Positions 5,463 to 21,559 of a stretch of DNA of 21,559 bases are shown piece by piece; position 1 is the stretch's first letter, and each line of letters starts with the position of its first letter. The position numbers were made by a program, and so were the translations under genes. The stretch is from positions 1-21,559 of IMG/VR virus record IMGVR_UViG_3300022200_001499; one strand, written 5' to 3'. The DNA comes from a virus. Below the pieces are notes generated by a model. It was not told the DNA's origin. It searched no databases and was given only the letters and a program-made list of their open reading frames with translations.

Positions 5463-6842
5463 ATGGAAACTCCAGCAAGACATTCCTTTACGTTAGATGG
5501 TACAACCAAAGTTTTTCCTATACCTTCTAACTTAAAAGGTGATAACTATGTTCGGCTAGAGGTTGATGGTGTAATTATTAATGATAGGTCAAAGTATGAC
5601 ATTGTTAATAACTCAATTGTAATGAACAACGCAGCTGACGTGCCTTCGGGCAGTCAGTTGGACGTTCTTGTAGTACAATCTGAAGAAGCCATTGGTCAAC
5701 TAGCAATTACAACAAATATTGATATTGTAGCTCAAAATATAGATGACATTAATTTGTTAGGTGCTATTGTTGCTGATATAACATTAACAGCAGATAACAT
5801 TGTAGACATTCAGAATGCTGAAGAAAATGCAGCAGCTGCTTTAGCTTCTAAAAATGCAGCAGCAGCTTCTCAAGCAGCCGCAGCAACATCTGCAACTAAC
5901 GCAGCTAACTCAGCAGCAGCATCAGCTACAAGTGCTAGTAACTCGGCAACAAGTGCAACAGCTTCAGCAGCAAGTGCTACAACAGCTACTACTCAAGCTT
6001 CAGCAGCAGCTACCTCAGCTACAAATGCTAGTAACTCAGCGACAGCAGCTGCTACAAGTGCAACTAATGCATCTAATAGTGCGAGTGCTGCAAGTACATC
6101 GGCTAGTGGCGCGGCAAGCTCTGCAACAGCTGCTAGTAATTCAGCATCAAATGCAAGTACATCGGCAACAGCGGCAGCTGGCTCAGCTACGTCTGCAAGT
6201 TCATCAGCTACAACAGCTACAACACAAGCTGGTATTGCAACGACTCAGGCAAGCAATGCAGCCTCCTCAGCGAGTTCTGCAAGTACTTCTGCTACCAATG
6301 CCTTAGCTAGCGAAAATAATGCGTCTACGAGCGCTACAGAGGCATCTACGAGTGCTTCTAATGCATCAACAAGTGCAGATCAAGCAGCAGCAAGTGCTGT
6401 TTTAGCCGCAGGATACACCCCTGATACTACTGGCAATGCTGGTAAATATTTAAGCACAGACGGCACAATTACTTTATGGGCTGATGTTGCTGCTGTTGAT
6501 GCTCTTCCTGACCAAACTGGTAATACAGGTAAATACTTAACAACAGACGGTACAGACGCTTCATGGGCTGTAGTAAACGTAACCCCTGCTCTAAACGATA
6601 TTTCAGACGTAACCATCACTTCGGTATCAACTGGAGAAGTTTTAGCCTACAATGGCTCTGCATGGGTAAATACAACGTCAAGTAGCAATAGTACATCAAA
6701 AGGTTTGTATGAACACAGTAATACAATAGATGCTAACTATACAATTGCTACTGGAAATAATGCTATGTCTACAGGTCCTATTACAGTTGATAGTGGCGTA
6801 ACAGTAACCGTTCCTAGTGGCTCACGCTGGGTAGTATTGTAA
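5463..6842 (+). CDS. Tail fibre protein with T7 gp17-type N-terminal anchor
   Basis: The first about 110 residues match the T7 gp17 tail-attachment domain. They begin RHSFTLDGTTKVFPIPSNL, continue to YVRLEVDGVIINDRSKYDIV, and end near AITTNIDIVAQNIDDINLL. Residues about 120-320 are a low-complexity shaft built almost wholly of Ala, Ser, Thr and Asn, with short units such as SATNASNSA recurring. The C-terminal about 130 residues contain two 'TGN(A/T)GKYL(S/T)TDGT' modules and end in VPSGSRWVVL, an ending often seen in phage fibres. The protein lacks a large receptor-binding tip, so the tip function is probably supplied by the following genes. ATG is preceded by AAGGAAAAACT. Total length is 459 residues (T7 gp17 is 553). 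Confidence 0.9.
   Translation: METPARHSFTLDGTTKVFPIPSNLKGDNYVRLEVDGVIINDRSKYDIVNNSIVMNNAADVPSGSQLDVLVVQSEEAIGQLAITTNIDIVAQNIDDINLLGAIVADITLTADNIVDIQNAEENAAAALASKNAAAASQAAAATSATNAANSAAASATSASNSATSATASAASATTATTQASAAATSATNASNSATAAATSATNASNSASAASTSASGAASSATAASNSASNASTSATAAAGSATSASSSATTATTQAGIATTQASNAASSASSASTSATNALASENNASTSATEASTSASNASTSADQAAASAVLAAGYTPDTTGNAGKYLSTDGTITLWADVAAVDALPDQTGNTGKYLTTDGTDASWAVVNVTPALNDISDVTITSVSTGEVLAYNGSAWVNTTSSSNSTSKGLYEHSNTIDANYTIATGNNAMSTGPITVDSGVTVTVPSGSRWVVL
5823..6405 (+). repeat. Ala/Ser/Thr low-complexity repeat tract in the fibre gene
   Basis: The DNA is a degenerate repeat rich in GCA, AGC, ACA and AGT codons (for example 'AATGCTAGTAACTCAGC' variants) encoding the fibre shaft. 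Codons vary a lot for the same residues, so the peptide pattern, not the DNA, is kept. Such tracts easily change length by recombination, and the Gln/Leu-rich frame open on the same strand is a by-product. Confidence 0.75.
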
Positions 6843-8549: not shown

Positions 8550-8738
8550 ATGGACAACAAACGTGTGATTTACAAAACTGATGACAATGGGGTCGCTGTC
8601 ATCGTTCCTGCACCCGGCGCTACACAAGAGCAGGTGCTAAAGGCTGTACCAGCAGGTAAGCCCTACAAGATTGTAGATGTCGCAGATATTCCTGAAGACA
8701 GAACATTCCGTAACGCATGGGAATATATTAATGCTTGA
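8550..8738 (+). CDS. Fibre companion protein, N-terminal half (split by HNH gene?)
   Basis: This 62-residue protein (start supported by AAGGAG) begins MDNKRVIYKTDDNGVAVIVP and ends 'IPEDRTFRNAWEYINA'. From memory, phage proteins with 'DRTFRNAW' normally continue directly into a segment like '(V/I)T(V/I)(N/D)LDKAKEI...R..R...L..LDV'. That is exactly how the separate protein at 9111-9338 begins. The two lie in the same reading phase (both starts are at multiples of three) with an HNH gene between them. So this is probably the front part of a former single gene of about 135 codons. Whether the half is functional is unknown. Confidence 0.75.
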   Translation: MDNKRVIYKTDDNGVAVIVPAPGATQEQVLKAVPAGKPYKIVDVADIPEDRTFRNAWEYINA

Positions 8739-9111
8739 TAGATTTTTGAGCAAAACAATACCAGAGCCAAATTCTGGTTGCCTATTATGGACTGCTCATG
8801 TTAGCAGAGATGGATATGGAAGATTTGGAATTGGTAGAGTTCCACATGAAGCTCATAGAGTATCCTACAAATTATTTAAAGGTGAAATACCAAAAGGATT
8901 GTGTGTAGACCATATATGCAAAGTTAGAAGTTGTGTTAATCCAAACCATTTAAGATTACTTACAAGAGAAGATAATTCAAGATTGCAAGATAATTTTAAT
9001 GCAAAGAAAACGCACTGCAAATGTGGCAATGAATATACATTAAGAAACAACAAGCGAATTTGCAAGCCATGCCAAGCATCGGCTTCTAAAAAATATAGGG
9101 AGAAATTATAA
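8731..9111 (+). CDS. HNH homing-type endonuclease
   Basis: ATG 8731 was chosen because it overlaps the upstream stop and gives the N-terminus usual for this family (MLDRFLSKTIPEPNSGCLLW). The 126-residue protein has the HNH_3-type core: GCLLWTAHVSRDGYGRFGIG, then AHRVSYKLFKGEIPKGLCVDHICKV with Asp60-His61, then 'SCVNPNHLRLLT' with Asn72-His73. A C-terminal zinc ribbon follows (Cys96, Cys98, Cys111, Cys114). Such enzymes nick or cut intronless alleles and spread between phages. It lies between two small frames that look like one broken gene. TAATG occurs at both edges (8729-8733 and 9109-9113). I see no clear group I intron around it, so it is probably free-standing. Confidence 0.9.
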   Translation: MLDRFLSKTIPEPNSGCLLWTAHVSRDGYGRFGIGRVPHEAHRVSYKLFKGEIPKGLCVDHICKVRSCVNPNHLRLLTREDNSRLQDNFNAKKTHCKCGNEYTLRNNKRICKPCQASASKKYREKL

Positions 9112-18544: not shown

Positions 18545-19009
18545 ATGAAAGTATGTTCTACATGTAATGAATTAAAACAACTCAAAGCTTTCTTCAAACG
18601 CAACGATTCGTTAGACGGTTACGAAGGCAATTGTAAAGAATGTCGAATGGAAAAAAAGAGAGCTAACCCAAACTTTAAAGAGACTACTAGGAAAGCTGCT
18701 ATCAAACACGAGAAGAAGCGTAAAGGTACGCGGTGGGGTTATAGTCTTTATCGTAACTACGGTATTACAGAGGATGATTACTGGGAAATGTATGAAGCAC
18801 AGGAAGGATGTTGTGCTATCTGTCGTAGACCAACTCAAGGTGACCACTACAACCGATTAGTCGTTGACCACAATCACGACACAAAAGAGGTACGTGGTTT
18901 GCTATGTAATAGCTGTAACGTAGTCCTAGGACACTCAGGCGACAACGCTGAAGTACTTGAACGCGCTGCTCAATACCTAAAGGATAAAGGTTCTTATGAC
19001 CGAGAATGA
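18545..19009 (+). CDS. Endonuclease VII-like HNH nuclease
   Basis: ATG 18545 is chosen because AAGGAG lies seven bases upstream; a longer reading from 18506 has no ribosome site. The 154-residue protein has an N-terminal zinc finger (Cys4, Cys7, Cys30, Cys33), a basic linker, 'YGITEDDYWEMYEAQEGCCAIC' (72-93), and the His-Me finger core 'VVDHNHDT..VRGLLCNSCN' with Asp108-His109, His111, Cys121 and Cys124. This is the recombination endonuclease VII type, known in T4 for resolving branched DNA before packaging. T7 has a different resolvase (gene 3). Here it could debranch concatemers, or be a homing-like invader between the terminase genes. It overlaps the large terminase by 14 bases. Confidence 0.88.
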   Translation: MKVCSTCNELKQLKAFFKRNDSLDGYEGNCKECRMEKKRANPNFKETTRKAAIKHEKKRKGTRWGYSLYRNYGITEDDYWEMYEAQEGCCAICRRPTQGDHYNRLVVDHNHDTKEVRGLLCNSCNVVLGHSGDNAEVLERAAQYLKDKGSYDRE

Positions 19010-20690
19010 AGTTAAATTAGCAATTAGCGACTTTAAGTATTTTCTCAAGATTACTTGGGAGCATTTGAGGTTACCACCACCTACAGAAATGCAGTATCGA
19101 ATTGCTGACTTTCTGCAAGAGGGACATAGACGCTCAGTGCTACAGGCTTTGCGCGGAATTGGAAAGACGTGGGAGAGTGGAGCATTTGTAGCTTGGAGAT
19201 TATTACGTAATCCTAATGAGAAAATTTTAATTGTATCTCAGTCAGGGTCACATTCTGATGCTATTGCTATCTTTATTAGAAAACTAATTGATACAATGCC
19301 TATCCTTGAGCATCTACAACCACGTGCTGACCAAAGGTCATCGGTAATTGCTTTTGATGTTAACGGATGTGATGTCTCTGTACAACCTTCGGTTAAATCG
19401 CTCGGTATTACCTCACAGTTACAAGGTAACCGTGCCTCTTTGTTAATCTCAGACGATATTGAAGGACAACAAAACTCTGCTACTGAGAAACGTAGGCAAG
19501 ACTTACTTAATCAGGCAGCTGAATTTGAGGCTATCTTACAAACAGGTAAAGAATCACAGATACTTGTATTAGGCACACCGCAGACTTCTGAATCAATATA
19601 TAATAGGATGTTAGATAAAGGTTATGTAACTCGTATATTCCCTGCTAGATACCCTGATAACATCGCTGTGTACAAAGGGTGTCTAGCTGATTATATCGTA
19701 CAAAAACTTAACAACAACCCCTCCCTTGTAAACAAGTCTATTGACGAAAGATTCTCAGATGAAGACTTATATCAGAGGGAATTAAGTTATGGTCGTAGTG
19801 GTTTTAAGCTACAGTTTATGCTTGATACTACATTAAGTGATGCTGAAAAGTATCCTTTAAAGACACGAGACTTAATTGTTACTGACCTATCCCCTGAACA
19901 AGCCCCTACAAAGCTCATGTGGAGTTCTCAGAGCCACGATAGTATTCAAGACATACCCAACGTAGGGTTTACTGGAGATACGCTGCAGAGACCTAGCTTA
20001 CAGGAGTCCTATGGTAACTATGAAGGTAGTATTTTAGCCATTGACCCGAGTGGTCGAGGTACGGATGAGATGGGGTGGTGTGTAGTCAATCATTTACTAG
20101 GTAAAGTATTTGTACCAGCATTTGGTGGATTACGTGGTGGTTATGACGAAGCTAACCTTGTGAAGCTTAGTCAGATAGCTCAGGAATACAAAGTCAATAA
20201 GGTAGTAGTTGAGAGTAACTTTGGTGATGGTATGTTTACTAGCTTACTAACTCCTGTGCTTAATGCTATCTATCCTGTCGCTACTGAAGAGATACGTAAC
20301 AATATTCAGAAGGAAAAGAGGATTATTGATACTCTAGAACCTTTGATGAACCAGCATCGACTAGTCTTTGACTATAGTGCTATTAAGAAAGATGTAGAGT
20401 TTGCTCTAGTTGAGCCTAAGAATATCTACTACTCCCTAATCTATCAGCTAAGCCATATAACTTATGATAGAGGTGCTTTGGTGCATGACGATAGACTTGA
20501 TGTATTGGCTATGGGTGTTCAGTTTTGGAACGACTATGGTATCTTAAAGCAGGACTCTGATGATGCTTTGGACATCTATAAGAAGAAAAAGATTGAAGAT
20601 GAGCTTAAAAGACGAGCTAATATCTTTAGGAGTATGCAAAAAAGACCACAAAGTAAGCCTAGTTTATCAAGAATTAGAGCTTTTAATTAG
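18996..20690 (+). CDS. Large terminase subunit, DNA packaging ATPase and nuclease (T7 gp19-like)
   Basis: This 564-residue protein (T7 gp19 is 586) has the expected ATPase motifs: Walker A ALRGIGKT at 51-58, Walker B LLISDDIE at 149-156 and the coupling motif LGTPQT at 192-197. The RNase H-like nuclease follows, with Asp350 in 'AIDPSGRGTDEMGW', Glu406 in 'VVVESNFGDG' and 'HDDRLDVLAMG' (Asp499, Asp502). It drives concatemer DNA into proheads and cuts it at the terminal repeat. Its start lies inside the end of the nuclease gene, with AAAGG before ATG. It is the last large gene in the window, as in T7. Confidence 0.97.
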   Translation: MTENEVKLAISDFKYFLKITWEHLRLPPPTEMQYRIADFLQEGHRRSVLQALRGIGKTWESGAFVAWRLLRNPNEKILIVSQSGSHSDAIAIFIRKLIDTMPILEHLQPRADQRSSVIAFDVNGCDVSVQPSVKSLGITSQLQGNRASLLISDDIEGQQNSATEKRRQDLLNQAAEFEAILQTGKESQILVLGTPQTSESIYNRMLDKGYVTRIFPARYPDNIAVYKGCLADYIVQKLNNNPSLVNKSIDERFSDEDLYQRELSYGRSGFKLQFMLDTTLSDAEKYPLKTRDLIVTDLSPEQAPTKLMWSSQSHDSIQDIPNVGFTGDTLQRPSLQESYGNYEGSILAIDPSGRGTDEMGWCVVNHLLGKVFVPAFGGLRGGYDEANLVKLSQIAQEYKVNKVVVESNFGDGMFTSLLTPVLNAIYPVATEEIRNNIQKEKRIIDTLEPLMNQHRLVFDYSAIKKDVEFALVEPKNIYYSLIYQLSHITYDRGALVHDDRLDVLAMGVQFWNDYGILKQDSDDALDIYKKKKIEDELKRRANIFRSMQKRPQSKPSLSRIRAFN

Positions 20691-20728
20691 TGGTTGTAAG
20701 TTGTTGTTTCTTAAGCACTTCATTTGAA

Positions 20729-20761
20729 CGGACATTCTAGGGGTGAGGATATATAATATCC
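20729..20761 (+). promoter_or_regulatory. Candidate sigma70 promoter overlapping a palindrome
   Basis: CGGACA (20729-20734, 4 of 6 with TTGACA) is followed after exactly 17 bases by a perfect TATAAT (20752-20757). The -10 box lies inside the inverted repeat GGATATATAATATCC (20747-20761). It points toward the repeat array and the two pqqA-like genes. T7 has strong host-type early promoters at its left end, and this would be the equivalent if the contig is joined across the genome ends. The palindrome could bind a repressor. No experimental support. Confidence 0.5.
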
Positions 20762-20766
20762 GAACT

Positions 20767-20830
20767 CTTTAAGATTCTCTAAGATTCTTTAAGTATACTC
20801 TAAGTATACTCTAAGTATACTCTAAGAACA
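20767..20830 (+). repeat. Direct repeat array 1 (SR-like), six units
   Basis: Six head-to-tail units with core CTYTAAG: two of 10 bases (CTTTAAGATT, CTCTAAGATT), then four of 11 bases (CTTTAAGTATA, CTCTAAGTATA twice, CTCTAAGAACA). T7 carries an array of short CCTAAAG-like SR repeats next to its terminal repeat, and this array sits in the equivalent place. It shares the CTCTWAGATTC motif with the second array at 21447-21516. Confidence 0.8.
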
Positions 20831-20856
20831 CTTTTGCTTTTAGGTTTTACGTAGGC

Positions 20857-20869
20857 AGTCCTAAGGACT
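20857..20869. repeat. Palindrome AGTCCTAAGGACT
   Basis: A perfect 13-base inverted repeat with a one-base centre, in the non-coding region after the terminase. It might be a protein-binding or terminase-related site. The symmetry is visible; nothing else supports a function. Confidence 0.4.
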
Positions 20870-21045
20870 AACTACTACTACCCCTACCTTAAATCTTATA
20901 TCGAGGTTTACTGTAGGTTTTACATCGAGGTTTTATGTGTAATCTTTACGCAGTCTCGATGACAACTACGTACTCTCTAGTCAACTGTAATCATTTCGAT
21001 GACTCAAGCTAGACCTTGTATGCTATTAATATATGGAGAAATACT

Positions 21046-21117
21046 ATGTGGACATCACCAGCAGCTACTGAAATGCGTTTTGGCTTTGAAGTTACTATGT
21101 ACGTAATGAATAAGTAG
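21046..21117 (+). CDS. pqqA: PqqA-like PQQ precursor peptide, copy 1
   Basis: This 23-residue gene has a good ribosome site (GGAGA, six bases before ATG). The peptide starts MWTSPAATEMRFGF and ends EVTMYVMNK. PqqA of Klebsiella is also 23 residues and has the same frame: Met-Trp at the start, Pro5, Arg11, Gly13, then Glu15-Val-Thr-x-Tyr19 and a basic end. Glu15 and Tyr19 are the two residues that PqqE, with the chaperone PqqD, crosslinks to build pyrroloquinoline quinone. No pqqB, C, D or E is seen here, so maturation would depend on the host. PQQ is the cofactor of methanol and other quinoprotein dehydrogenases. The stop is TAG. The main alternative is that this stretch is host DNA at a junction. 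Confidence 0.85.
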   Translation: MWTSPAATEMRFGFEVTMYVMNK

Positions 21118-21137
21118 GACTTACAATATAACATTAA

Positions 21138-21151
21138 GTCCCCTTTGGGAC
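21138..21151 (+). terminator. Small hairpin between the two pqqA copies
   Basis: GTCCC (21138-21142) pairs with GGGAC (21147-21151) around a CTTT loop, 21 bases after the first pqqA stop. The stretch after it is T-rich but broken (ATACTCAATTTAATTT). It may be a weak terminator or an mRNA 3' stabiliser making copy 1 its own message. Five pairs only, so confidence is low. Confidence 0.35.
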
Positions 21152-21179
21152 ATACTCAATTTAATTTAAGGATACTATT

Positions 21180-21251
21180 ATGTGGACATCACCAGCAGCA
21201 ACAGAACTACGCTTTGGCTTTGAAGTAACAATGTACGTAATGAACAAGTAA
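21180..21251 (+). CDS. pqqA: PqqA-like PQQ precursor peptide, copy 2
   Basis: This second 23-residue gene lies 62 bases after the first, with AAGGA seven bases before ATG. The peptide equals copy 1 except Leu for Met at residue 10, and keeps Glu15 and Tyr19. At DNA level seven codons differ and six of these changes are silent; the stop is TAA instead of TAG. The first 18 bases are identical. That pattern means an old duplication, or two separate acquisitions, kept by selection for the peptide. Each copy has its own ribosome site. Two copies would raise precursor supply, since one PqqA is consumed per PQQ molecule made. Confidence 0.85.
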   Translation: MWTSPAATELRFGFEVTMYVMNK

Positions 21252-21559
21252 GCATTACTACAGCCCATACCTCTGATTTAACTAATATACCCCACACGCC
21301 TATCAAAGAAGCGCAACCTTGTGGTGTTTTTGAACATGACCTTGGACCGTTATGTCAGGTAGGGATAACCTGTAAAACCCTAAAAATACTAAAAAAATCT
21401 GTGGGGGTATCGATAGGAAAGCCTTCTTAATTTTCCCCCAGCCCCCTTTTTGATTGCTTTTGATTCCTTTAAATTCTTTTTGATTCTTTTTGATTCTCTT
21501 AGATTCTCTTAGCTTCAAATATCAAAGAGTAATAAGAGACACTAAGAGAATACCAACAG
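21252..21559. other. Non-coding region at the window end
   Basis: No supported gene in these 308 bases. The first about 195 bases show only a possible long-loop inverted repeat (TGGGGG at 21402-21407 with CCCCCA at 21435-21440). The rest holds the second repeat array (21447-21516) and an A/G-rich stretch with AAGAGA motifs. An open frame on the minus strand runs through the repeat array and is judged a by-product. Confidence 0.6.
21447..21516 (+). repeat. Direct repeat array 2 (SR-like), seven 10-base units
   Basis: Seven exact 10-base steps: TTTTTGATTG, CTTTTGATTC, CTTTAAATTC, TTTTTGATTC twice, TCTTAGATTC and TCTTAGCTTC. The last units resemble CTCTAAGATTC of array 1. In T7, SR repeats occur both left and right of the terminal repeat. 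Two related arrays about 620 bases apart therefore suggest that the ends of the linear genome lie between or near them. A period near one helical turn could also matter for protein binding or DNA bending (T-tracts in phase). Confidence 0.8.

Follow-up and report, generated by a model that had tools for sequence, protein, structure and literature searches.

A tandem pqqA pair at the putative right end of a T7-like methylophage is predicted to lie outside the terminal repeat

The window analyzed here, a 21,559-bp IMG/VR record that represents a genome fragment and whose right edge is a contig end rather than a demonstrated genome end, carries two pqqA genes, host-like metabolic genes in a clearly viral context. 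The window is best explained as covering the late half of the genome of a T7-like, Autographiviridae-type phage that infects methylotrophic Methylophilaceae, in which both pqqA genes would occupy a late-expressed slot at the right genome end, left of a terminal repeat that is predicted to begin at position 21410. We assign a probability of about 0.8 to this explanation as a whole. The pqqA pair is accordingly best read as a putative late auxiliary metabolic gene and not as the immediate early gene that was suggested in the first-pass annotation for the case that the pair lies within the terminal repeat and hence at both genome ends.

The late half of the genome is arranged in T7 gene order within the window. 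The terL gene (18996-20690; plus strand, like the pqqA genes, arrays, promoter, and junction features described below) encodes a T7-type terminase large subunit (DNA maturase B), as supported by matches to PF22530 (Terminase-T7_RNaseH-like, E 3.2e-37) and phrog_38 (terminase large subunit, E 3.8e-103). The single-subunit RNA polymerase gene would fall outside the window; in the relatives G001 and L012 an ORF of 842 amino acids is the candidate for it, judged by its length, its location, and a reading of the sequence. Relatives were gathered by TerL; L006 is the nearest of these, and the TerL of L012 is 81% identical to that of the window. In many relatives terL and the first early genes are separated by a largely noncoding stretch of approximately 1 kb or longer, as in T7. 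A recombination endonuclease VII-type gene (PF02945; 18506-19009), probably encoding a homing endonuclease, is inserted between terS and terL and overlaps the start of terL, and is absent from this position in G001. An ORF at 8677-9111, between tail-fibre-type genes, displays an HNH-like pattern by eye. In five relatives (L039, L040, L041, L042, and L061) the terL match covers approximately 2.4 kb versus 1.7 kb, reflecting an insertion of some 750 bp within terL that is perhaps an intron or homing element.

The 719 bp from the terL stop to the cut motif contain pqqA copy 1 (21046-21117; MWTSPAATEMRFGFEVTMYVMNK) and copy 2 (21180-21251; MWTSPAATELRFGFEVTMYVMNK), each of 23 codons. PqqA is the peptide precursor of PQQ, in which PqqE joins the Glu and Tyr of the E-x3-Y core, and the host enzymes PqqBCDE consume PqqA one for one in making PQQ for methanol dehydrogenase. 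Both peptides read ..FEVTMY.. and keep this core intact, and the two ORFs match PF08042 with E-values of 1.7e-9 (copy 1) and 1.2e-9 (copy 2), their scores of 37.9 and 38.4 bits exceeding the gathering score of 21.1. Matches also occur in Methylophilaceae genomes, and the earlier assignment of pqqA as a metabolic gene is supported. A Shine-Dalgarno-like sequence is present before each ORF, and the copies differ by six synonymous codons and one nonsynonymous codon. The single pqqA of L006 matches copy 1 in its 5' part and copy 2 in its 3' part, a hybrid structure consistent with gain or loss through recombination between tandem copies. The pqqA leaders are conserved among the window, L006, and L012. 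Upstream of pqqA there is also a conserved element, ACTACGTACTCTCTAG, which was initially read as a phage promoter; this reading was dropped on finding that the element occurs once per genome and nowhere but upstream of pqqA. The leader also contains a AGTCCTAAGGACT dyad (20857-20869), for which L006 has AGTCTTAAAGACT, with both sides changed and pairing kept, and a small GC stem (GTCCCCTTTGGGAC; 21138-21151) lies between the copies; an Rfam search returned no match.

The boundary of the terminal repeat was predicted from a motif that most relatives share in the gap after terL, which reads roughly AAAAAATCTGAGGGGGTATCATCA, followed by approximately 15 bases and then CCCCC. In the window this terminase junction motif, identified with a profile from 28 relatives, occupies 21389-21415 (CTAAAAAAATCTGTGGGGGTA followed by TCGATA), with the predicted cut between 21409 and 21410 and a C run at 21435-21439 that has its counterpart in CCCCC(A/G)TAG of T7, T3, and gh-1. 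The right junction of T7 reads ATAAAAATCTGAGTGACTA up to the point where the right terminal repeat begins, which continues as TCTCACAG...TTCCCCCATAG, and that of T3 likewise reads ACAAAAATCTGAATGGGTA up to the repeat start and TCTCATAG...CCCCCCCATAG beyond it. The likeness to T7 was seen before the weight matrix was built, and T7 letters were not used in it: the matrix derives from 28 uncultivated relatives, excluding T7, T3, gh-1, and the window, the motif position in each training sequence being that of the best match, and it was run on whole genomes and both strands. The repeat start was recovered exact to the base in T7 (39778; rank 1 of 79,822, 21.2 bits, next 11.4), T3 (37978; rank 1 of 76,364, 29.3 bits, next 4.0), and gh-1 (37144; rank 2), the terminal repeats of these phages (160 bp, 231 bp, and 216 bp) being verified as identical to the left genome ends, in gh-1 as 37144-37359 to 1-216.

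The same matrix ranked 21410 first among 43,066 positions of the window, at 25.2 bits with the next position at 5.0. When two close relatives were left out the matrix again gave 21410, at 23.2 bits, whereas the best scores in 200 shuffles averaged 8.0 and peaked at 23.0, so that one of the 200 neared the leave-out score. Among relatives that did not contribute to the training set (L353, L354, L363, L364, L368, L376, and the isolate HTVC134P), the best motif match lay 167-867 bp past terL. The motif failed in P-SSP7, Lau218, and CRP-227 and is therefore not universal in T7-like phages; the P-SSP7 terminus is of another kind. The motif starts 137 bp to the right of copy 2, with 158 bases from the end of that gene (21251) to the predicted cut, and both pqqA genes therefore lie outside the predicted terminal repeat. 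We infer the left part of this repeat (21410-21559) from the junction motif, its right edge falling beyond the window, which ends 150 bp past the cut. In G001 and L012 pqqA is likewise situated left of the motif. The T7-like right end and the nearby terminal-repeat boundary of the first-pass annotation are supported, but its tentative placement of pqqA inside the repeat is not, since the T7/T3/gh-1 cut-site motif puts the repeat start to the right of both genes. A sequence-based prediction of the start of the terminal repeat is now available for an uncultivated phage group, and the results indicate that T7-like end motifs can be transferred to metagenome contigs without reads.

The window shares with T7 (V01146) and T3 (AJ318471) a layout in which terL is followed by phiOR, one or more small genes, an array of short repeats, AAAAATCTGA.TG..TA with the cut directly behind it, and a terminal repeat with CCCCCATAG. 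In this arrangement pqqA occupies the slot of gene 19.5; the window differs in that two pqqA genes take the place of 19.5, its host is a methylotroph, and its ends are predicted. A comparable situation exists in cyanophage P-SSP7, for which a terminal repeat of 206 bp has been mapped experimentally (PMC3350473). The talC gene of this phage ends at 44963, 8 bp before the mapped repeat start at 44971, and is, like pqqA, a metabolic gene of host origin in the interval from terL to the right terminal repeat, although the gene is a different one and this cut motif is lacking. The nearest named phages by TerL, those of the Lauvirus lau218 group (54-56% identical), also have a metabolic gene (rdsrA) close to terL, but rdsrA is located upstream of terL, pqqA is absent, and the junction motif was not found. 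Other ORFs in the slot between terL and the motif encode 150 amino acids in L044 (105-557 after terL) and 166 amino acids in L353 and L354 (approximately 325-830 after terL), so that the slot takes varied cargo among relatives. A tentative proposal has two parts and falls somewhat short of even odds when these are taken jointly: the slot between terL and the repeat, which has a late promoter of its own and is little constrained, may be a general cargo slot in which unrelated T7-like lineages fix the one metabolic gene suited to their host (talC in the case of cyanophages, the pqqA pair in the window), and the common metabolic gene of methylotroph phages may encode no enzyme but a substrate peptide of 23 codons, overlooked for its size.

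The two repeat arrays that had been noticed around pqqA in the first-pass annotation are genuine, correctly positioned, and related to each other. Array 1 (20767-20830) consists of 10/11-bp units (CTTTAAGATT, CTCTAAGTATA) and was detected by TRF at 20770-20827 with an 11/22-bp unit and a score of 79, and array 2 (21446-21516) consists of 10-bp units (CTTTTTGATT) and was detected at 21446-21507 with scores of 75 for a 10-bp and 89 for a 30-bp unit. When 20691-21559 was shuffled 500 times (first order), the highest score was 63 and thus none attained 75, and a single 22-nt family spans both arrays with 73-86% identity. A model in which the terminal repeat spans both arrays (approximately 620-750 bp), such that pqqA would be present at both ends, with the left copies entering the cell first and expressed immediately early, draws on this relatedness, on the location of the region in the right-end zone of a T7-like genome, and on the clustering of relatives' contig ends in that zone. 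We nevertheless consider it very improbable, on account of the T7/T3/gh-1-type cut motif to the right of pqqA in the window, G001, and L012. Moreover, G001 retains pqqA without the second array, and the array pair therefore does not define the terminal repeat. The arrays do not flank the predicted repeat either: array 1 would lie outside it, on its left, and array 2 inside it. CTTTAAG arrays resembling array 1 occur in the same position in the relatives L010, L015, and L045, and array 1 can be compared with the short repeats that T7 has to the left of its right terminal repeat, with the difference that array 1 precedes the cargo genes and the T7 array follows its cargo. The least probable of the alternatives is headful packaging from a pac site, which would yield a circularly permuted genome and render the question of what lies inside the repeat meaningless; permutation would also give assemblies that run continuously from terL to the early genes, as observed, but the TerL is of the T7 type, the cut motif equals that of the fixed ends of T7 and T3, and P-SSP7 was assembled as a circle too and yet has fixed ends (PMC3350473).

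Per kb, contig ends of the relatives are some three to four times as frequent in the zone 200-1350 bp after terL as elsewhere (18 ends; 0.41 per kb versus 0.15 and 0.09; p 1.8e-5, calculated over loci that are not independent). This clustering fits a terminal zone, although repeats in that zone can also break assemblies. In a single case, the contig of G013 starts 10 bp before the motif and has a 164-bp end repeat at 98.8% identity, which is suggestive of a terminus. Several other candidates were discarded: the exact end overlaps of G012 and G017 (127 bp) and G016 (114 bp) correspond to the k-mer overlap size of the assembler, the contig break of G001 falls inside a pentapeptide-repeat gene, and those of G010 and G011 lie away from terL. 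ProddE was rejected as a benchmark, since its annotated predicted repeat is absent from the right end of the ProddE record. An exact search with the right end of the window matched no other contig.

The timing of pqqA expression was approached through its upstream region. A search for repeated 20-mers in the 42-kb relative G001 revealed TTTCATTTGAATGGACATTCTAG three times, and the corresponding 23-mer (up to 2 mismatches) is found in that genome once directly behind the putative polymerase ORF, once ahead of the structural block, and once downstream of terL; it did not occur in shuffles at up to 3 mismatches. In the window it is represented at 20718-20740 (CTTCATTTGAACGGACATTCTAG followed by GGGG; 2 mismatches to the G001 repeat) as a phage-RNA-polymerase-type, phiOR-like promoter; variants such as GACAATCTAGGGG occur in the same position after terL in other relatives, the promoter as such was not found in L012, and a scan with the T7 promoter consensus yielded noise only. 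Because this repeated phage-type promoter precedes pqqA, as phiOR does in T7, late transcription by the phage RNA polymerase is the likeliest reading. A sigma-70-like promoter (CGGACA-17-TATAAT; 20729-20757) overlaps the phage-type promoter, which makes host transcription of pqqA from this site possible. A scenario in which pqqA lies outside the repeat and the host RNA polymerase transcribes it independently of the phage programme, using a sigma-70 promoter that belongs to pqqA or lies nearby, would also be compatible with the conserved leaders in the window, L006, and L012, but appears unlikely, as sigma-70-like sites are no commoner than in shuffles (2 versus 2.9) and the signal given by the phage promoter with its repeats is much stronger. 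In T7 the right genome end enters the cell last, which is established for T7 and assumed for the phage in the window, and on this biology the right end would arrive last even if the host polymerase were used. The earlier suggestion that pqqA would be the first to enter and immediately early is therefore not upheld, as a position left of the predicted cut implies presence at the right end only and the upstream phage-type promoter points to late expression.

In the preferred explanation, the terminase would cut the concatemer at the conserved motif right of terL, as in T7, such that the terminal repeat starts at 21410 and the pqqA pair between terL and the cut is present once per genome, at the right end only, and enters the cell last. 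The phage RNA polymerase would then read pqqA from the phiOR-like promoter, probably with or after the virion genes, and each copy would supply a complete PqqA peptide as substrate for the host PqqBCDE enzymes, by which the phage may keep PQQ supply and the energy derived from methanol going late, after host transcription falls. This would shift pqqA from the first gene in to the last gene in, and the associated hypothesis to sustaining methanol oxidation late in infection. The alternative view that the pqqA ORFs are decaying host remnants, for which their very short length and a copy number unlike that of the nearest relative L006 could be adduced, seems highly improbable considering the intact peptide, the ribosome site, the mostly synonymous changes both between copies and relative to L006, and the presence of pqqA at the same place in L012.

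In a scan of bacterial genomes, this type of PqqA was encountered in Methylophilaceae (Methylotenera, Methylophilus, Methylopumilus, and OM43) wherever genus or family was named among the matches listed, some records carrying a name at no finer rank than order, class, or phylum. Because it occurs in these genomes as well as in methylophage isolates, the host is taken to be a Methylophilaceae-type methylotroph. In fourteen such host genomes the number of pqqA genes ranges from 1 to 12, and some of the genes form tandem pairs approximately 200 bp apart; several copies are therefore normal for these hosts. None of 120 other viral loci with this PqqA had a second copy within the locus stretches examined, and a pqqA gene at a T7-like right end was found in three related phages (the window, L006, and L012). 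A literature search found no paper linking pqqA to phage termini or describing it at a T7-like right end. Viral PqqA as such has been reported once before, in the Lake Baikal viral population VP_266, a Methylophilaceae phage (Coutinho 2020, PMC7678222), which differs in being T4-like and in stemming from a set in which methanol dehydrogenase is present too, with no link to termini drawn; the window presents a host-like metabolic gene that occupies the slot at the right end of a T7-like phage. Five types of isolated methylophage also have a pqqA gene that is intact and has a ribosome site, namely P19250A (position 6024), MEP301 (6013), Venkman (1501), MEP401/402 (621 in MEP402), and Melnitz (1495 in Melnitz-1). 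At these sites the records have no annotated gene, or in Melnitz an opposite-strand hypothetical ORF, and pqqA is not annotated as such. The peptide of these isolates is nearly the same as in the window, whereas the phage types are unrelated and the genes are single copies that are not at a T7-like end. The presence of the mostly unannotated pqqA in five isolated methylophage types makes the idea testable in existing cultures. A tandem pqqA pair is furthermore present in a viral contig of 229,675 bp (G021, the contig of L345; 56210-56266 and 56344-56400), with the same start-to-start distance of 134 bp as in the window and an unlike spacer sequence.
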